A stretch of 64,000 nucleotides of DNA, from NCBI GenBank assembly GCA_903873705.1, contig CAIQPK010000007.1, positions 1 to 64,000 of the forward strand, read 5' to 3'. Position numbers and translations under genes: made by a program. Shown here one piece after another: positions 2,932-18,153 of the stretch (positions within the stretch are counted from its first letter, which is position 1; the number at the start of each line of letters is the position of its first letter). Below the pieces are notes generated by a model. That model searched no databases. It was not told the DNA's origin and was given only the letters and a program-made list of their open reading frames with translations. This DNA comes from an uncultured Acidobacteriota bacterium (GTDB lineage: Bacteria > Acidobacteriota > Terriglobia > Terriglobales > Acidobacteriaceae).

Positions 2932-3897
2932 ATGCCCACACTCGGTCCCACCAAAACCCTCGGCAACTCCGACATGAACCTCACCGCCATCGGCTTCGGT
3001 GCCTGGGCCATCGGCGGCGGAGGCTGGCAGTTCGGCTGGGGCAGCCAGGAAGACACCGACTCCATAGCCGCCATCCACCGCGCCCTCGACTCCGGCATCA
3101 ACTGGATCGACACCGCCGCCATCTACGGCCTGGGACACTCCGAAGAAGTCGTCGGCAAGGCCCTCAAGTCCGCCAGCGCCAGGCCCTACATCTTCACCAA
3201 GTCCACCATGATCTGGAACGACCAGCGCGAGATCAGCCGTTCCATGAAACACATCCACCGCGAGTGCGAAGACAGCCTCCGCCGCCTAGGCGTCGATGTC
3301 ATCGACCTCTACCAGATCCACTGGCCCATTCCCGACGAGGAACTCGAAGAAGGCTGGACCGCCATGGCCGAGCTCCAGCGCCAGGGCAAAGTCCGCTACA
3401 TCGGCGCCTCCAACTTCTCCGTAGCCCACATGGAACGCGCTCAGAAGATAGCCCCCATCACCTCACTCCAGCCGCCCTACTCCATGATCAACCGCGCAGT
3501 GCAGGACGAAATCCTGCCCTTCTGCCTCCAGCACAACATCGGCGTCATCAACTACTCCCCGATGCTTTCCGGCATGTTGACCGGCGCCATGACCAAGGCC
3601 CGCGTCGCCGCCATGCCCGACGACGACTTCCGCCGCAACACCAGGCAGTTCAAGGAGCCGTACCTCACCCACAACCTCGAACTGGCCGCCCACCTCACCG
3701 AGATCGGCCAGCGCCACAACGTCTCCGCCGGCGTAGTAGCCGTGGCCTGGACACTTCACAACCCCGCCATCACCGCCGCCATAGTAGGCGGCCGCAACGC
3801 CAGGCAGGTAGAAGGCCTGCTCCCCGCCACCACCTTCCGCCTAACCGAACCCGAGTTCCAGGAAATCAACGACCACCTGGCAAAAATGCCCGCCTAG
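2932..3897 (+). CDS. Aldo/keto reductase
   Basis: MNLTAIGFGAWAIGGG...GINWIDTAAIYGLGHSEEVVGKAL...DLYQIHWP...YIGASNFS, AKR family motifs. Confidence 0.93.
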   Translation: MPTLGPTKTLGNSDMNLTAIGFGAWAIGGGGWQFGWGSQEDTDSIAAIHRALDSGINWIDTAAIYGLGHSEEVVGKALKSASARPYIFTKSTMIWNDQREISRSMKHIHRECEDSLRRLGVDVIDLYQIHWPIPDEELEEGWTAMAELQRQGKVRYIGASNFSVAHMERAQKIAPITSLQPPYSMINRAVQDEILPFCLQHNIGVINYSPMLSGMLTGAMTKARVAAMPDDDFRRNTRQFKEPYLTHNLELAAHLTEIGQRHNVSAGVVAVAWTLHNPAITAAIVGGRNARQVEGLLPATTFRLTEPEFQEINDHLAKMPA

Positions 3898-3913
3898 CCC
3901 TAAGCCGCACCAT

Positions 3914-3958
3914 CCGGGCGCCCCATGTCCCTCGCACTTGGGGACATGGGCTGCCACC
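3914..3958. repeat. Hairpin after aldo/keto reductase; probable family D member and possible terminator
   Basis: GGGCGCCCCATGTCCC-TCGCACTTG-GGGACATGGGCTGCCACC, 10-bp perfect stem. Confidence 0.6.
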
Positions 3959-3993
3959 ACCAACTGTCATCTCGATCAGAACCACCTCAAAAC

Positions 3994-4040
3994 TGTCATC
4001 TCGACCGAAGCGCAGCGCAGTGGAGAGACCTGCAGCTTTC
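3994..4040 (+). repeat. Variant of intergenic repeat family A
   Basis: GTCATCTCGACCGAAGCGCAGCGCAGTGGAGAGACCTGCAGC. Confidence 0.6.
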
Positions 4041-4057
4041 ACAAGAGCAGCACCATG

Positions 4058-4103
4058 CGGGTGCCCCATTCGTGACAGTCCCACCGTCACGGGTGGGGTT
4101 CCA
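4058..4103. repeat. Intergenic hairpin repeat family D, copy 2
   Basis: GGGTGCCCCATTCGT-[GACAGTCCCACCGTC]-ACGGGTGGGGTTCCA. Confidence 0.65.
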
Positions 4104-4148
4104 CCTCCGCAACACCCCCACCAACAACTAACAACCGACAACCGACAA

Positions 4149-5777
4149 CTACCTCACCCCCATATCAAACGTCCCCATCCTCCCCGTCCCCGTATCTCGC
4201 ACCACAAACCGCAGCGAAGCAACATTCTTCGCCGCCTTCCCAGCCGGTTCCACCGTAAACGCAAAATCCGCCGTCTTCGCAGCATCGCGCAGATTGGTCC
4301 CTTCACGGGCATGAGCCGTCATACCATGCAGCGTATGCGCCACCATCTTGCCCTTCTTATCCAGGTAAACCGCCAGCACCGCCACCGAAGCCGTAGACGA
4401 CCCATCATCCACCGGCTTCCACGTCAGCTCCGACGCGCCCACATGCACCACAAACGTCTGCGCCGGCACGCTCACCGAGTTCGTCGGCTCCACCCGCACA
4501 TGCAGCCCATTCAGCGGCACCGTACTCTCCGCGGCATTCGATAGGTCATACGAAATCGTCACCGCGGCCTTCTGCTGCCGCGTCTCCTCCGCAAAGTACC
4601 CATCGCGCGTCTTCAGCGTCAGCCCCGGACGCTTGCAATCCACCCGTATCCGCCGATACTTCACATCCGCATTGCTGCCGTTCGAAGGCGAGTACCCGAT
4701 CGTGTAGAAGCTCCGCCCCAGCGCCACACTCAGCGCAATCTGCTTGCCCACGTTGTTCATCCCGCGTACTACGCGCCCACCCGTCACCGGTGCCAGCCGG
4801 TCAAAATCCTCACCCCCATCAAACCCCGACAGCGACCCATTGCTGCTGTCCGAGTTCGCCTCGGCGAACGCCGCCTGCTGCTCGTCGGTCACCTCCACCA
4901 TCCCCGCCGCCGAGCTCGAAGGATCAACCGCGTACATCGTCACATGCGCATCCATCAGTGTGTTGGTCACATGCTGCATCGTGTCCTTCACTTCCTGCAG
5001 TTCCGATCCATCAATCGTCGTCGGGTCCAGCGTCGGAAACCCACCCCCCACCCAGATCATGTTCTTCCGCCCCGGAATTCGCGCCGAGCTCTGCGCAATC
5101 TGCTCCAGCGCACGCAGGCTCTGATCCAGCCGCGAAATCGGTCCATTCTCTGACGCACCCAGCAGGTCCAGCGTCCAGCTCTTGTGCGTCGGCTCCGCGG
5201 CCAGCGCCTTCAGCAGTGCATCGCGATCCCGCGTATAGGCCTTCACGATCTTGAAGTGGTTGTCGTACACCGTCACCAGCGTCGTCGGCTGCGGCAGCAA
5301 CGCCGGCTGCTGAACCAGGAAGTCATGCAACGATTTCCGCGCAAACGCGCTGTCGGAAAAGTGTGTATTCAGCTGGTCCAGCACCAGCACCGTCACCGGC
5401 GACTGCCCAAACGCCGCCGGCTGCGCCGCATCGAACACCGCATTTGGATCCGACGACGCCGCCATCGCCTCCGGAAGCACATGCGCCGACGGCGGCTCGA
5501 ACGACGCAATCCGCTGCGCCTTGCCATCCTCGTACACCGTAAAGTCGTCGCGCGTCAGCCCTTCAACAGGATTACCCGCCTTATCCGTCACCACTACATC
5601 CAGCACCACCAGCCGAGCATTCACCGTCAGTGTCGACGTATGCGGAGCCTCACCAGCCTGCGCCGACTGCCCCACGGCACAAACATTCAAAAATAACGAG
5701 GCCGTAACAAGGGTTGCCAGAAATGGCTGCGAGCGGCGATAAGTAGCTGTCCTAAAAAGCAAGTCGAGTCCCTTCAA
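4149..5777 (-). CDS. Acidobacterial VWFA-related domain secreted protein
   Basis: N-terminal signal, LVVLDVVVTDKAGNPVEGLTRDDFTVYEDGKAQRIASFEPPSA, then a VWA-like core (VTVLVLDQLNTHFSD...RIPGRKNMIWVGGGFP). Confidence 0.9.
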   Translation of the reverse strand: MKGLDLLFRTATYRRSQPFLATLVTASLFLNVCAVGQSAQAGEAPHTSTLTVNARLVVLDVVVTDKAGNPVEGLTRDDFTVYEDGKAQRIASFEPPSAHVLPEAMAASSDPNAVFDAAQPAAFGQSPVTVLVLDQLNTHFSDSAFARKSLHDFLVQQPALLPQPTTLVTVYDNHFKIVKAYTRDRDALLKALAAEPTHKSWTLDLLGASENGPISRLDQSLRALEQIAQSSARIPGRKNMIWVGGGFPTLDPTTIDGSELQEVKDTMQHVTNTLMDAHVTMYAVDPSSSAAGMVEVTDEQQAAFAEANSDSSNGSLSGFDGGEDFDRLAPVTGGRVVRGMNNVGKQIALSVALGRSFYTIGYSPSNGSNADVKYRRIRVDCKRPGLTLKTRDGYFAEETRQQKAAVTISYDLSNAAESTVPLNGLHVRVEPTNSVSVPAQTFVVHVGASELTWKPVDDGSSTASVAVLAVYLDKKGKMVAHTLHGMTAHAREGTNLRDAAKTADFAFTVEPAGKAAKNVASLRFVVRDTGTGRMGTFDMGVR

Positions 5778-5907
5778 ACAATTACGCCGAAAGCTGCATC
5801 CCGTTACGACCGAATCACGCTCCCGGATTTACCAGCCTACACCCGAAGACGTTCCGATTACGCCGCAAGTTGCGGCCAAACCCAGCGCCAAACCGTTACC
5901 ATGACCC

Positions 5908-8900
5908 ATGCTCACTCTGTTCAAGCAGCACCCGGCCCTGCGTCTCCTTTCGGTCCTCCTCTTCTCGCTCCTCTTCGCTCCACAGATCTGGGCAGCCGGA
6001 TCCACCACGGTCGTCATCAGTCAGCTCTATACCGCTGGTGGCAATAGCGGGGCAACCTATAACGCCGACTACGTGGAACTCCACAACATCAGTTCCACTC
6101 CGCAGACACTGACCGGCTGGTCCCTCCAATACTCGTCCGCCACCGGAACCACCGCCGCTGCCAGCGTCATCTCCATCCCCGGAACAGTGACCATCCCTGC
6201 CGGCGGTTATTACCTCGTTCAGGGCACTGCAGGAAGCACCGGCGCCGCTCTCCCCGTCACCGCCGACGTCACGCTCAGCGGCCTCGCCATGGGCGCCAGC
6301 GGCGGCCGCATTTATCTCACGAATTCGTCGACCGCCATCGCCGTCGGCAACCTCTGCACACCAGGCGCAGTGGACTGGGTAGGCTACGGAAACGCCGTCT
6401 GCTTCGAAGGCACCAAGGCCGCGCCAACCCCCACCACCACGGTCGCTTCCATCCGCGCCGGCAACGGTTGCACCGACACCGACGACAACGGCGCAGACTT
6501 CGCCACCGGAACGCCCGCACCCCACAACAGCTCCTCCGCCATTACCTCCTGCAGCACCGGCCCAGCCAGCCTCTCCGTTGCCGGATCAGCCAATCCCTCT
6601 TCCGTATATCAAAACGCCACCACCCTCCTCACGGCAGCCGTCACACCCGGAACCGGCTCCACCGGCATCACCGTCGCCGCTAATCTCAGCGCCTTTGGCG
6701 GCAGCTCCACCCAGCCCATGTTCGACGACGCCACCCACGGCGACGCAACCGCCGGCGACGGTATCTACAGCTACCTCCTCGCCGTCCCCACCTCCGCTCC
6801 GCTCGGCGCCAACACCATCGTCGCCACCGCAGCTGACGCGCAAGCCCACACCGCCACCGCCAACATCGCCGTCACCGTCCTCGCCCCGGTCACCCTCGTC
6901 CCCATCCACACCATCCAGGGCAGCGTCGCCGGAACGGCCGCCTATAACGGCCAGACTGTCATGACCTCCGGCATCATCACCGGCGTCAAGGTCAACGGCT
7001 TCTACCTGCAAGCCAAAGATGCCGACGCCGACTCAGACCCCAGCACTCCCGAAGGCATCTTCGTCCACACCGGAACCGGCCTCGTTCCTGGCAGCGCCAC
7101 CGTCGGCACCGCCATGCAGGTCACTGGCACGGTCACGCTCTTCCCCACTGCTGGCCCTCTGCCCGGCACCGAGCTCGACAGCCCCACCGCCTTCACCGTC
7201 CTCAGCACCGGCAACTTACTGCCCAACCCCATCACCCTCACTACCTCGAACCCCAGCCCCTCCGGCGGCTTCGCACAGCTGCAGCGCTATCAGTCCATGC
7301 GCGTAGCAGTCCCCAGCTTCACCGTTACCGGTCCCACAGAGGGCGTACTCACTGAGACCGCCGAGACCTACGTCTCCACCGGCCAGTTCTGGGGCACCGT
7401 CACCGGCACGTCTCGCCCTGTCCGCGAACCCGGCCTCGAAATCCTCGACCCCCTCACCGCCAGCGAGCCCTCCACCATCCCCCGCTTCGACGACAACCCC
7501 GAGCTCTTCGAAGTCGACTCCCTCGCCCTCGTCCCCACCCCCGGTCCGCTCGACCTCGCCACCGGTACCACCCTCACCAACCTCTCAGGCATCATGGACC
7601 TCTCCAGCGGCACCACCCTCTTCCTCATCGACGCCGCCACCCGCCCCACCGTCACCGGCGGTCTCACCGTCGTTCCCGTCCCCGCTCCCAACGCCGGCGA
7701 AATCACCATCGGCGACCAGAACTTCGAGCGCTTCTACACCACCGCCCGCAACGCCACCGGCGCCACCATCATCACCCAGGCCGCCTACGACCTCCGCAAG
7801 GCCAAGGCCTCGCTCGCCATCCGCAACGTCATGCGCATGCCCGACATCATCGCCATGGAAGAAATCGAGGACATCGCCACCCTGCAGGACCTCGCCGCCA
7901 AGGTCAGCACCGACGCCATAGCCGCCAGCCAGCCCGACCCCCACTACGCCGCCTACCTCGTCCAGGGCAACGACACCAGTGGCATCAACGTCGCCTTCCT
8001 CGTCAAGCCCGCCACGGTCAACGTCGTCGACGTCACCCAGTTCGGAAAAGCCACCACCTTCACCCAGCCCAGCACCGGCAACCAGGCCGAGCTCAACGAC
8101 CGTCCCCCGCTGGTCCTCCACGCCGGCATCAAGCGCACCGGCACCACCGACTACCCCCTCACCGTCATCGTCAACCACCTTCGCTCCCTCAACGGCGTCA
8201 CCGACAACACCGGCTCAGGCCAGAACACCCGCGCCAAGCGTGAGCAGCAAGCCGAGTACCTTGCCAACCTCGTCCAGGGCTACCAGGCCGCCGGTGAGCA
8301 CGTCATCGTCGTCGGCGACATGAACTTCTTCGAGTTCAGCGACGGCATCGTCGACTCCGCCGGCATCATCAAGGGCACAGCCGCCCCCGCCAGCCAGGTC
8401 ATCGTGCCCGGTCCCTCCGGCCTCGTCACACCCAACCTCGTCGACGTCGCTCCCACCAACCTCGCCACCAACACCTATAGTTACAGCTTCGTCGGCAACG
8501 CACAGAGCATCGACCACTTCTTCGTCACCTCCAATATCGCCAGCATCGTCCGCACCGCGCCGGCACATTACAACGCGGACTTCCCGGCAATCTACCGCAA
8601 CGATTCCACCCGCCCTGAGGTCGGCTCCGACCACGACGGCATCGTCGGCTACATCAAGATCCCCGGCACCACCGTCCTTTCCATCACCCCCACCACCCTC
8701 ACCTTCCCCTCGCAGGTACTCAGCACCACCTCCACGCAGACCGTGACGGTCACCAACAACGGCACGGCGCCGATCACCGTCACCACCATCGTTTCTTCCA
8801 ACGCCAACTTCACCATCCCCGCAACGCCCTGTGGCGCGCAGATCGTCTCCGGCACACCCTGCGTCATCACTGTCACCTTCAAGCCCACGGCAACCGGCCC

Positions 8901-9771
8901 CATCACCGGCACGCTCACTCTCACTGACTCCGACGTCACCGGCACCCAGACCGTCACGCTGAACGGCACCGGCGCCGGCATCTTCAGCGCCGTCGCTCTC
9001 ACCGCTACTCCCGGAGGCGTATTCGGAAGCACGATCAACCTCAGCGCGACCGTCACCGGCAACGCGGGAGCCACACCCACCGGAACCGTCAACTTCCTCG
9101 ATGGCGCCACCGTCATCAAGAGCGCGGCCGCCCTCAACACCAGCGGCATCGCCACCTTCAGCACCACAACCCTCGCCGTCGGCACCCACAGCATCACCGC
9201 GGTCTACAGCGGCGATGCCAGCTACCCCACTTCCACGTCAACCGCATCGAGCGTCCTTATCACCGCACCGCCCGTGCCCGACTTCACCTTCACCGTCGCC
9301 AACGGCTCGCTCGTCGCCAACTCCGGCGCCCGCACCGCCAGCACCGTCCTCCACGTTGCCATGGTCAACGGCTTTACAGGAACGGTCAGCTTCGCCTGCA
9401 CCGGCCTTCCCTCCGGCGCCCGCTGCACCTTCTCCCCCGCCTCGCTCTCCGCCACCGGCGACAGCACGCTCACCGTCGGCATCGACGGCGCCGCGCTCCA
9501 CGCGCCGCTGGACTTCGGTGGCACCGGCACCATGCTCGCCTTCGCTCTGCTTACCCTGCCCTTCCTGGCCCGCCGCAAGGTCCGCGCCGCGCTCGGCAAG
9601 GCAGGCACGCTCATGGCGCTGCTCCTCCTCGCCGTCGGCTTCGCTGCCCTCACCGGCTGCGGCGGAGGCGGCTCGTCGAACTCAACCCCCACCGGAGCCA
9701 GCACCATCACCGTCACCGCAACCTCGGGAAGCGTCAGCCACTCGGGAACGTTCACCCTCAATGTCCAATAG
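5908..9771 (+). CDS. Secreted multidomain nuclease: lamin-tail domain, endonuclease/exonuclease/phosphatase domain (ExeM/NucH-like), choice-of-anchor-D and Ig-like domains, C-terminal anchor
   Basis: LTD-like VVISQLYTAGGNSGATYNADYVELHN; EEP motifs VVGDMNFFEF, SIDHFF, GSDHDGIVGYI; Ig_3-type repeat; C-terminal TM segments and TGCGGGG. Confidence 0.88.
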   Translation: MLTLFKQHPALRLLSVLLFSLLFAPQIWAAGSTTVVISQLYTAGGNSGATYNADYVELHNISSTPQTLTGWSLQYSSATGTTAAASVISIPGTVTIPAGGYYLVQGTAGSTGAALPVTADVTLSGLAMGASGGRIYLTNSSTAIAVGNLCTPGAVDWVGYGNAVCFEGTKAAPTPTTTVASIRAGNGCTDTDDNGADFATGTPAPHNSSSAITSCSTGPASLSVAGSANPSSVYQNATTLLTAAVTPGTGSTGITVAANLSAFGGSSTQPMFDDATHGDATAGDGIYSYLLAVPTSAPLGANTIVATAADAQAHTATANIAVTVLAPVTLVPIHTIQGSVAGTAAYNGQTVMTSGIITGVKVNGFYLQAKDADADSDPSTPEGIFVHTGTGLVPGSATVGTAMQVTGTVTLFPTAGPLPGTELDSPTAFTVLSTGNLLPNPITLTTSNPSPSGGFAQLQRYQSMRVAVPSFTVTGPTEGVLTETAETYVSTGQFWGTVTGTSRPVREPGLEILDPLTASEPSTIPRFDDNPELFEVDSLALVPTPGPLDLATGTTLTNLSGIMDLSSGTTLFLIDAATRPTVTGGLTVVPVPAPNAGEITIGDQNFERFYTTARNATGATIITQAAYDLRKAKASLAIRNVMRMPDIIAMEEIEDIATLQDLAAKVSTDAIAASQPDPHYAAYLVQGNDTSGINVAFLVKPATVNVVDVTQFGKATTFTQPSTGNQAELNDRPPLVLHAGIKRTGTTDYPLTVIVNHLRSLNGVTDNTGSGQNTRAKREQQAEYLANLVQGYQAAGEHVIVVGDMNFFEFSDGIVDSAGIIKGTAAPASQVIVPGPSGLVTPNLVDVAPTNLATNTYSYSFVGNAQSIDHFFVTSNIASIVRTAPAHYNADFPAIYRNDSTRPEVGSDHDGIVGYIKIPGTTVLSITPTTLTFPSQVLSTTSTQTVTVTNNGTAPITVTTIVSSNANFTIPATPCGAQIVSGTPCVITVTFKPTATGPITGTLTLTDSDVTGTQTVTLNGTGAGIFSAVALTATPGGVFGSTINLSATVTGNAGATPTGTVNFLDGATVIKSAAALNTSGIATFSTTTLAVGTHSITAVYSGDASYPTSTSTASSVLITAPPVPDFTFTVANGSLVANSGARTASTVLHVAMVNGFTGTVSFACTGLPSGARCTFSPASLSATGDSTLTVGIDGAALHAPLDFGGTGTMLAFALLTLPFLARRKVRAALGKAGTLMALLLLAVGFAALTGCGGGGSSNSTPTGASTITVTATSGSVSHSGTFTLNVQ

Positions 9772-9879
9772 CCAGATCCTCCAGTAAGCTGGAGGAGCAT
9801 CAACGGGCGGCGCAGCCACAGGCAGCGCCGCCCGAACGATTTGCCGCCACGTGCTGCACAGATAGTTTTGAGGTTTCCA

Positions 9880-10740
9880 ATGAACAGAACGCTCCTCCGC
9901 TCGCTCGCCACCGCCGCCATGCTCCTGTGCATCTCAACTCAGCCCACCTGGGCCTGGGGACGCGCGGGCCACCGCCTCGTCGCCCTCGTAGCCGACAGCT
10001 ACCTTACGCCTGAAACCCGCGCCGCCGTCGAGGAGCTCCTCGGCAAAGACTCCATGGCCGACGTAGCCTCCTGGGCCGACCAGTATCGCCAGCAGCATCC
10101 CGAAACCGGACCCTGGCACTTTGCCGACACCCCGAAAAGCGAAACCGCCTACGTCCGCGACCGTGACTGCCCCGTCGCCAAAGACGGCGGCCCCACACGC
10201 GACTGCGTCGTCGACCGCATCGTCTACTTCGAAATGCGCCTCGGAGACAAGTCCCTCTCCCACGACCAGCGCGCCGAAGCCCTCAAGTACCTCATCCACT
10301 TCATCGGCGATATCCACCAGCCTTTGCACATGATCCAGGACGCCCGCGGTGGCAACGACATCGCCGTCAACTTCATGGGCTCCCCGGTTTGCGGCAACTA
10401 CAAGTGCAACCTCCACGGCGTGTGGGACGAGGAACTCCTCGACCATCACGACATGAAGGAAAAGCAGTACGTCGCCTTCCTGCTCGACGACATCAAGCAG
10501 CACAACTGGGAGAAGCTCGCCGGCGGTTCACCCTTCGCCTGGGCCAACGCCTCGCACCAGTACGCGGTCAACGCCTTCGCCCCCAACGGCGCGCTCATCA
10601 CCAAGGAGTACTACACCGAAGAAATCCAGGTAGTAGACTCCCAGCTGGCCCTCGGCGGCCTCCGCCTCGCCCGCGTCCTGAACACCATCCTCAGCCACCA
10701 ACCCGTCCCACCCCCGCCCACCGCGCCAGAACAGAAGTAA
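9880..10740 (+). CDS. Secreted S1/P1-type nuclease
   Basis: AWGRAGHRLVALVADSYL... YLIHFIGDIHQPLHMIQDARGGNDIAV... NLHGVWDEELLDHH, zinc-ligand motifs of S1/P1 nucleases. Confidence 0.93.
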   Translation: MNRTLLRSLATAAMLLCISTQPTWAWGRAGHRLVALVADSYLTPETRAAVEELLGKDSMADVASWADQYRQQHPETGPWHFADTPKSETAYVRDRDCPVAKDGGPTRDCVVDRIVYFEMRLGDKSLSHDQRAEALKYLIHFIGDIHQPLHMIQDARGGNDIAVNFMGSPVCGNYKCNLHGVWDEELLDHHDMKEKQYVAFLLDDIKQHNWEKLAGGSPFAWANASHQYAVNAFAPNGALITKEYYTEEIQVVDSQLALGGLRLARVLNTILSHQPVPPPPTAPEQK

Positions 10741-15561: not shown

Positions 15562-18153
15562 CTACTTGACCGTGAGCGGAACCGTAAAGGTTGAAACCGT
15601 ACCCGCAGATCCCGTCGCCGTGACGGTAACAGTGCTGGTTCCTGAAGGCGTCGCCAGCACAGTCGGGCCGCCGCCGCCGACCTTGCCGCAAGCGACCATT
15701 CCGGAAGTAATCAGCAGCAATGCCAGCGCCATCCACACCTTGCCGAACCGCAACACATGCTTGCGGCGGCGGATACCGATCCACATCGCAAGCAGCAACC
15801 CAGGCAGGATCGCCAGCGCCTGCCACGGCCCTCGACCGGAACCATACCCTGAGCCGGTAACCGAGATCGGCTGCGGTGCCGCCTGCGTCGTTAGAATGCT
15901 GAGCGCCACCGTGGACGACGTTGTGCAACCCGTTGCCGTAATCGTCGACGGGCTGAATACGCAGCTGCTGCTGGCCGGCAGGCCGGAGCACGAGAATGAA
16001 ATCGTTCCGCTGTAAACGTTCTGCGCCAGGCTGAACGAGTAAAGCGCCGTTCCACCAGCGACTACGCTGCTCTCCATGGTGCTGTTGGCAGTGGCCACAA
16101 AGTTCGGCGTCGAGCTGATGATGTTGGTCACCGACGATGTCGATCCATTGAAGCTGCCATCGCCGCTGTACTTAGCTGTGATCGCATACGACCCGGGAGT
16201 ACTGAAGGTGTTCGTGAGCGTCGCCTTGCCAGCGCTCGAGAGCGTCTGCGGAGTCCCAATCTGGGTACCATTAGCGAAGAACGTGATCGTTCCGGTAGGT
16301 GTTCCCGTGCTCACCACCTGCGCCGTAAACGTGACGGCCGAGGTCGACGACAAGGTGCTAGAAACGCACGTCGAACTCGTCGTGTACCCCAGCGTAGTAC
16401 GCGTCAGGGGCGAAGTAATGTAGGTGCCGCTCAGCGTGAAGTTACCCTTCGCACCCTTCGAACTGGTCGCGGTCAGGGTTCCTGTGAAGGGTCCCAGTGT
16501 GGAAGGCGTTGCTGTCACAGTCACGGTGCAGTCAATCGTCCCGTCCGAATTAGCCGCCAGGCAGCTGAACGCGCCGAGTGAGAAGTTCGCCGAACCTGCG
16601 GTGATGCTGAACGGCGTGGCCGCCGGTGGGTCCGCTGCGGCAAAGTGCACAGCCACAAGCTGGCTTGGCTGATTCGCACCAACGGGGCCAAAGAACGCAC
16701 CGGCTGCTGCCTTGCGGACCGTGCCGGTGGTGGTGTCGGTGATCAACAGATCGCCGTAAGGGTTCACGAAAATACCGGCGGCGCCGCCGGGAACCAGTGT
16801 CGCTCCAGAGCCGCTCAGCTTCGAAAACACAGCCTGCGTGGCCGGGCAGCCGTCACCAACAGCGTCCGTTGCTGCAGCGCAGGGCGCCGTTGCGCCGCCG
16901 GCGACGGGATACATCGCCAGGGTGCCGGCATCCACGCGCCACACGATGCCGTTCGATCCATCCTCAACGTAAAGATTGTTAGCCAGGTCCAGCGCAACGT
17001 CGAACGTGTTGCCGATGCCGAAGCTGCCCGCCTTGCCGCGAGTAACCGTCGTACCCTTGGTGTTCAGAATGCCGGCATATGTCGAAATGATGTTGGCCGG
17101 GGTCACCTTGCCGGTGTTGTAGTTGAAGTAGTTCGCAAAGTAGACATTGCCCGAAGGATCGACAGCCACATCGTAAGGATTGTCCACGTTGGACACGTTC
17201 GCCACAGCGCCATCCAGCCAGCCCGGAACACCGGTCGGGGCGAAGTAGCATCCGCCACGCGACCCCGTTGCCGCCGCTGTAAAGTTCGGGCAGTCGCCCG
17301 AGTTATAGATCTTGGTGTTCAGGTTGCCGTAACCCACAAACTTGTAGATCGCACCCGGAACGATCGTCTGTCCCTGCAGCGTGATCGTCGTTGTACCCAG
17401 GTTCACCACTTCAACGGCCTGGTTGCCTTCATCGGCGATGTACAGATTGCCCGCAGCGTCAAAGGCAATCCCGTAGGGAAAGTTCAAGTAAGACTGCGTC
17501 GCTGCGTTCACCGGCCCGGTGCTGGACGTGTTGCTCGTCTTGTATCCGAAGGCGGGAAAGCCGCTAGCCACGCTATTGCCGGCAATGTTGGTAATCACGC
17601 CGGTGACGTGATCGATTTTGCGTACATCGTCGTTGCCGTTGTCAGAGAAATAGAGGTCACCCGCCGGAGAAAACGCCAGCCCCATGGGTTTGGAAAGCTT
17701 CACCAGGGTAGCCGCGCAGCCATCGCCCAGCGAGTCCAGCGCCACGCCAGTGCCGCAAGCAGCGCCGGTCGCCGGATTCACCGTCGCCCCACCCGCCACC
17801 GTGCTGATCACACCTGTCAGCGGATCGATGCGGCGCACCAGCGCATTCGCAGTGTCCGAAAAATAAATGCCGCCGGTATGGTCCGTGGTCACGAAGCGCG
17901 GCGCATTCAATGCAACCTCCGTGGCCAGACACCCATCACCTACGGCATCGGTGGACTTGAACCCCGACACCGGGCAGGTCGCGCCCGCCGCAGGACTCGA
18001 CGTCGCTCCGCCGGCAACAATGCTCAGCGAGTAGGGGAGAAGGGTGGGCGTCACCTGCGCCGAAGACGCCAGGCTCAAACAGAGAACGGCGGCGGAAACA
18101 GCGAGGAAGCGTGGTGCGAGGCCTTTAAAACCATTGCGGGGAAAAGTGGACAC
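15562..18153 (-). CDS. Secreted NHL-repeat / Ig-like domain protein with C-terminal membrane anchor
   Basis: Repeated NHL-like units (GVAFDAAGNLYIADEGNQAVEVV); Ig-like repeat; C-terminal TM segments and ACGKVGGGG. Confidence 0.85.
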   Translation of the reverse strand: MSTFPRNGFKGLAPRFLAVSAAVLCLSLASSAQVTPTLLPYSLSIVAGGATSSPAAGATCPVSGFKSTDAVGDGCLATEVALNAPRFVTTDHTGGIYFSDTANALVRRIDPLTGVISTVAGGATVNPATGAACGTGVALDSLGDGCAATLVKLSKPMGLAFSPAGDLYFSDNGNDDVRKIDHVTGVITNIAGNSVASGFPAFGYKTSNTSSTGPVNAATQSYLNFPYGIAFDAAGNLYIADEGNQAVEVVNLGTTTITLQGQTIVPGAIYKFVGYGNLNTKIYNSGDCPNFTAAATGSRGGCYFAPTGVPGWLDGAVANVSNVDNPYDVAVDPSGNVYFANYFNYNTGKVTPANIISTYAGILNTKGTTVTRGKAGSFGIGNTFDVALDLANNLYVEDGSNGIVWRVDAGTLAMYPVAGGATAPCAAATDAVGDGCPATQAVFSKLSGSGATLVPGGAAGIFVNPYGDLLITDTTTGTVRKAAAGAFFGPVGANQPSQLVAVHFAAADPPAATPFSITAGSANFSLGAFSCLAANSDGTIDCTVTVTATPSTLGPFTGTLTATSSKGAKGNFTLSGTYITSPLTRTTLGYTTSSTCVSSTLSSTSAVTFTAQVVSTGTPTGTITFFANGTQIGTPQTLSSAGKATLTNTFSTPGSYAITAKYSGDGSFNGSTSSVTNIISSTPNFVATANSTMESSVVAGGTALYSFSLAQNVYSGTISFSCSGLPASSSCVFSPSTITATGCTTSSTVALSILTTQAAPQPISVTGSGYGSGRGPWQALAILPGLLLAMWIGIRRRKHVLRFGKVWMALALLLITSGMVACGKVGGGGPTVLATPSGTSTVTVTATGSAGTVSTFTVPLTVK

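Follow-up and report, generated by a model that had tools for sequence, protein, structure and literature searches.

A C-terminal module of secreted Acidobacteriota proteins is an Ig-like domain broken by a membrane hairpin with a lipoprotein-like signal

The stretch of DNA analysed here (64,000 nucleotides; hereafter the window) encodes a nuclease and an NHL-repeat protein that end alike, which raises the question of what this shared ending is and how it might hold its carriers on the cell. The first carrier, P0001 (1287 aa; 5908-9771, + strand), was read from its open reading frame and from domain scans, and comprises, in order, a Sec-type N-terminus (signal peptide judged by eye), a lamin-tail domain, an ExeM/NucH-like nuclease, a choice-of-anchor D domain, Big_3_5 and the C-terminal module. 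The second, P0002 (863 aa; 15562-18153, - strand), identified in the same way, consists of an NHL-repeat propeller, Big_3_5 and the module. The original prediction had quoted the C-terminus of the nuclease, which is indeed encoded at 9526-9768 (+) at the end of the 1287-aa frame, and had noted a related ending in the NHL protein, which was found to close the 863-aa frame. A search of the window's genome with the 81-aa nuclease tail aligned the two tails at 47% identity (65 aa; E 1.8e-7) and matched several more proteins besides the NHL copy. Directly 3' of the nuclease carrier, at 9841-10740 (+), lies an open reading frame resembling, as judged by eye, an S1/P1-type nuclease (WGRAGHRLVALVAD...); from the sequence, secreted nucleases of two different folds may thus adjoin at 5908-10740.

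Both endings belong to a family for which NCBI holds a named model, and the module can therefore not be called undescribed, as had been supposed. NCBIfam NF058595 (invert_tail, "lipo-invert putative C-terminal anchoring domain") scored 51.1 bits on P0001 and 42.2 bits on P0002, both above the curated cut-off, 37 bits, and it likewise matched each of the 22 sequences in our alignment A4; the anchoring function is, as the name says, putative. In the genome from which the window derives, 10 tails exceeded the cut-off and 16 proteins displayed the same layout when translations were read. As the tails of both window proteins are among those passing the curated cut-off, the likeness goes beyond generic transmembrane and low-complexity similarity, the outcome that an HMM search had been expected to decide. 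The module is also portable, as had been proposed, since these 16 proteins are varied carriers; own-genome carriers include nucleases, two Pro-kumamolisin proteins (kumamolisin-type proteases), a GDSL lipase, NHL propellers and Ig-repeat proteins. In samples of the phylum, the module was present in every listed genome of the same family (f1; 44 genomes in one sample and 31 in another), and was sporadic or rare outside it, with two genomes of family f43 scoring strongly. None of the control genomes exceeded the NF058595 cut-off, with sub-cut-off matches appearing at loose thresholds. The named relatives recovered in a search with the tail of a single relative were Acidobacteriota or Terriglobia records, one of them labelled Aminicenantes.

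What the module consists of becomes apparent when the region upstream of the quoted tail is included. The module proves to be the final Ig-like repeat of its carrier, with a membrane hairpin inserted after the sixth strand and ahead of the two remaining ones. In P0001, the N-half of the split domain (residues 1124-1195; 9277-9492, +) was delimited by HMM A1, which we built from N-halves, and by AlphaFold strands; A1, of which the P0001 sequence is itself a part, matched 9277-9486 with 85.7 bits. It is followed by the core of a first transmembrane helix, TM1 (about residues 1206-1221; 9523-9570), with the ARRK basic loop behind it, assigned from the AlphaFold helix and the sequence, and by a second, TM2, with the lipobox-like motif LTGC (9598-9660), assigned from the sequence, the tail alignment, AlphaFold and lipobox scoring; the lipobox-like Cys is residue 1251 (codon 9658-9660). 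A Gly/Ser tether, of like composition in relatives, is read from the sequence 3' of this Cys (9661-9684), and the C-half of the domain, its last two strands (residues 1260-1287; 9685-9768), completes the protein. The same order is found on the - strand in P0002, with an N-half at 15898-16107 (49.7 bits with A1, from which the P0002 sequence is absent), TM1, an RRRK loop, TM2, the lipobox-like Cys 822 (MVAC; 15688-15690), supported by sequence, lipobox scoring and a loop-TM2-Cys profile, and a C-half at 15565-15651, supported by the tail alignment and a C-half HMM. The N-half conforms to the consensus PDFxxxx...GFsGTVsxxCxGLPxgaxCxFSPaS...sTLTV, upstream of the hairpin, and the C-half, after the Cys, to TPxGTYTxTVTaTSGsxxhxxxxTLTVq. 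The two Cys of the P0001 N-half probably pair with each other, which could leave the lipobox-like Cys free. Hence the extent first given to the module (9496-9771) was right for its C-terminal part and too short at its start, the first Ig half at 9277-9492 belonging to it; likewise, the two helices, the basic loop and the Cys of the layout first described stand, while its independent Ser/Thr-rich beta tail turned out to be the missing half of the Ig-like domain. The hairpin itself varies in places: the TM1-TM2 loop is unusually long in L110 and L132, and in L123 the loop before the Cys (cytoplasmic) holds a stretch, GGGNQWVPAFAGTTG, like an in-frame translated repetitive extragenic palindrome.

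That one domain has been split, and that the split is conserved, is seen by comparison with uninterrupted repeats. A second HMM, made solely from the C-halves that follow the hairpin, matched uninterrupted Ig repeats in the fetched loci of relatives right behind their N-half, many at 25-43 bits; N-half and C-half thus match consecutive parts of whole repeats. In the tandem array of L091, for example, the sequence reads through with no hairpin (STLSVTTATT-TPAGTYTLTITGTNGTVTHTGTVTLIVQ-GPADFSISASP), and the C-half HMM matches there. Whole copies and a single terminal split copy occur side by side in the same protein in L092, L103, L082 and L098. Over all fetched loci, the C-half of split copies typically lies 60-104 residues past the N-half and, in 63 of 65, 0-3 residues from the end of the protein, as against mostly 1-11 residues past the N-half, and a mostly internal position, in whole copies. 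A tree of N-halves (73 columns, with labels assigned by a crude rule) was mostly unresolved with regard to a single origin of the split. In one locus of the window's genome, L073 (contig C6, 15863-16078), a 1516-aa open frame has a strong N-half close to its end, followed by neither hairpin nor C-half; this is perhaps a decayed or truncated copy.

The predicted structure agrees with this partition. In the AlphaFold model of the window tail, computed with a 22-sequence alignment, the strands within residues 8-75 had pLDDT values mostly of 94-98 and the two C-terminal strands (146-156 and 159-169) values of up to 98, with the helices at 55-78. Foldseek aligned the model, through the gap left by the hairpin, to solved Ig-like domains (e.g. 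2r39; 109 aa, target TM-score 0.65). Judging from model confidence and this fold match, the C-terminal strands are predicted to pair with the N-half and to complete the Ig fold.

A small group of proteins indicates how far apart the two halves may lie. In four subtilase-like proteins (by eye) from soil Acidobacteria (L113, L118, L129 and L130; three labelled gp2, subdivision 2), the N-half is followed by the hairpin, the lipobox-like Cys, at least two further Ig-like domains and finally the C-half, the two halves being 271-643 residues apart; the C-half scores 32-43 bits and still ends the protein. In L118, the remote C-half was modelled by AlphaFold with pLDDT 96-97, and in a further protein, L136, an FN3-like domain (by eye) stands between the Cys and the C-half. 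The retention of the C-half in the long-insert proteins is strong evidence that it must return to the N-half, and its position at their very end implies that what follows the Cys can be made up of several domains.

The segment between the halves carries a lipoprotein-like signal. Each of the 40 aligned tails has the Cys, which is preceded in them by Gly (30), Ala (7), Ser (2) or Val (1) and followed by Gly (30), Ser (5), Ala (3) or Asn (2). It was also found in all 80 distinct terminal C-halves, which had been collected with no requirement for a Cys: in 75 it lies no more than 75 residues upstream, and in the remaining five, which are the long-insert proteins, it is further upstream. Among 72 scored tails, 70 have G, A or S before the Cys, and 69 have their last basic residue 16-23 residues before it. 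A basic n-region, a hydrophobic stretch and a lipobox with an invariant Cys, the elements of a type II signal peptide, are accordingly all present; the -3 position, at which A, T, G and others occur beside L, V and I, is loose and counts against the lipobox reading. When a profile of basic loop, TM2 and Cys was run on the window's genome, the tails came first, and the next matches covering the Cys were mostly N-terminal lipoprotein signal peptides, such as MRLVPRLSAVAVFVALVSLTGCGAGT (L181) and MNRFGRYLVLLGGLLAVAGCSGGGS (L182). The N-terminal lipoproteins of the fetched loci amounted to 10 candidates, a small and noisy sample for a comparison of lipobox frequencies. The N-terminal placement of a type II signal was not found in the tails, in which the Cys lies inside the protein, typically with 34-49 residues between it and the C-terminus. 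It had been held that the tail does not fit classical lipoprotein sorting; this is correct for the abnormal position, and incorrect in that the basic loop, TM2 and the Cys together have the character of a type II signal.

Given this anatomy, the module is most likely an anchor, and we consider it fairly probable that the split Ig domain is served by an internal lipoprotein-type signal, with Lgt putatively lipidating the Cys, LspA cutting before it, and the strands acting as a clasp that anchors the carrier. TM1 would halt transfer of the secreted carrier, the Arg/Lys loop would remain cytoplasmic, and TM2 would recross the membrane like a type II signal peptide, the lipobox Cys emerging on the outer face of the inner membrane. 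Lgt would then add a lipid to the Cys and LspA would cleave before it; the freed, lipid-anchored two-strand clasp would complete the Ig domain and retain the carrier by strand complementation, at a final location that depends on the remainder. This TM1-loop-TM2 remnant could either be removed as well, which would permit outer-membrane transfer, or be kept as a second anchor. Since a cut at the Cys alone leaves TM1-TM2 on the carrier, the lipid clasp would be redundant unless TM1 were also cut, and no candidate enzyme for TM1 was identified. We also put forward, tentatively, a two-chain anchor: the hairpin would be excised on both sides (by LspA at the Cys and by another protease at TM1), and only the lipid-anchored two-strand clasp, by completing the split Ig domain, would retain the enzyme on the cell. 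In certain lineages, this clasp would form the distal end of a distinct multi-domain lipoprotein from the same gene.

The genomes were examined for the enzymes that such processing would use. LspA was found in 12 of 12 genomes tested and Lgt in 10 of 10, as well as in 58 of 61 genomes (several incomplete) of a wider family sample; because both are nearly universal, their co-occurrence with the module is uninformative. The genome of the window has four Lgt homologues, one of which follows a carrier in an operon-like arrangement (L196, contig C48: carrier 2984-6493, Lgt paralogue 6548-7384, 54 bases apart). In a genome of the same genus (G130; L199), an Lgt paralogue follows a carrier at about 82 bases, and in G241 one is divergent to a carrier. 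Across the family, a carrier adjoins 3 of 39 Lgt paralogue regions versus 0 of 33 main-copy regions, for a rough chance expectation of 1-2. Adjacency is thus not clearly enriched family-wide, and Lgt paralogues were set aside as dedicated partners, the arrangement being a hint only.

The main rival to the lipid-anchored clasp is a hairpin that is never cut and anchors the carrier permanently in the inner membrane; the Ig domain would rest on the membrane, its two helices would dip into it, and the Cys would be lipidated with no cleavage or have another role. The C-half is continuous in sequence with the hairpin and could fold back uncut, and the anatomy as such requires no enzyme; on the other hand, this leaves unexplained both the invariant lipobox-like Cys with its Gly/Ser tether and the match to lipoprotein signal peptides, and we regard it as rather unlikely. 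Another explanation would make the module a CTERM-type sorting signal, cut near TM1 by a dedicated protease (exosortase, rhombosortase or CAAX-type), with the Cys part secondary. TM1 and its Arg cluster do resemble the tripartite CTERM tag, 9 of the 12 genomes tested have exosortases, and in L150 (G257) a carrier (3211-5166) is followed about 500 bases downstream by an exosortase/archaeosortase-family gene (5672-6709; TIGR04178, 42.1 bits). However, two genomes that bear tails (G023 and G216) gave no exosortase match, rhombosortase (TIGR03902) was over cut-off in 0 of 12 genomes, and CTERM tags stop at the Arg cluster, whereas the conserved sequence of the module runs on. Moreover, P0001 and P0002 match no CTERM model in NCBIfam, PEP-CTERM included, which agrees with the original prediction that the tail does not fit PEP-CTERM sorting. 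We therefore rejected the exosortase explanation, and the CTERM-type reading as a whole appears improbable. Finally, G, S, T and V abound in the tails, and NF058595 gives its sub-cut-off matches at loose thresholds even in control genomes, as would be the case if only transmembrane and low-complexity composition were shared; yet with the curated cut-off passed by the tails and by no control genome, an invariant Cys, a fixed order, matching Ig halves, and a module found in all listed genomes of its own family and rarely elsewhere, such an account is hardly credible.

In the open literature, we found no paper with 'lipo-invert', nor with invert tail, internal lipobox or split immunoglobulin combined with related terms. 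NF058595 extends, in agreement with our description, from the strand that immediately precedes the hairpin through the hairpin to the tail, and differs in that the first half of the Ig domain is outside the model, which on P0002 starts at TVALSILTT. The splitting of the Ig domain, the architecture with long inserts and the hypothesis of a clasp exceed the name of this model and appear undescribed, although part may stand in NCBI's long description. In the sampled genomes, species of this soil Acidobacteriota family carry the tail on several secreted enzymes and other proteins, with numbers reaching a dozen or more. If the proposed mechanism is true, these proteins would be held on a Gram-negative cell by the standard Lgt and LspA together with strand complementation, with no dedicated sortase, and the module might find use as a display tag.

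Compared with known systems, the module has in common with type II (lipoprotein) signal peptides a basic n-region, a spacing of 16-23 residues to the Cys, G, A or S before it and a Gly/Ser tether after it, and differs in that its signal sits internally, behind another transmembrane helix and inside an Ig domain. The nearest described idea is that of MYXO-CTERM and myxosortase, likewise a C-terminal tag with an invariant Cys, for which Lgt-like lipidation and intramembrane cleavage have been proposed (PMC11980579). The MYXO-CTERM order of a Cys motif, one transmembrane segment and a terminal Arg cluster is not that of the module, which is reversed: a transmembrane helix, an Arg loop, a second transmembrane helix, the Cys and a folded tail. 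In the GAIN domain of adhesion GPCRs and in the donor-strand complementation of pili, a beta-sandwich is held non-covalently by a strand from a membrane-attached or separate piece; the likeness is one of working principle, with no homology claimed, and whereas the GAIN domain is cut by autoproteolysis, the cut proposed for the module would be made by LspA at the lipidated Cys, outside the fold.
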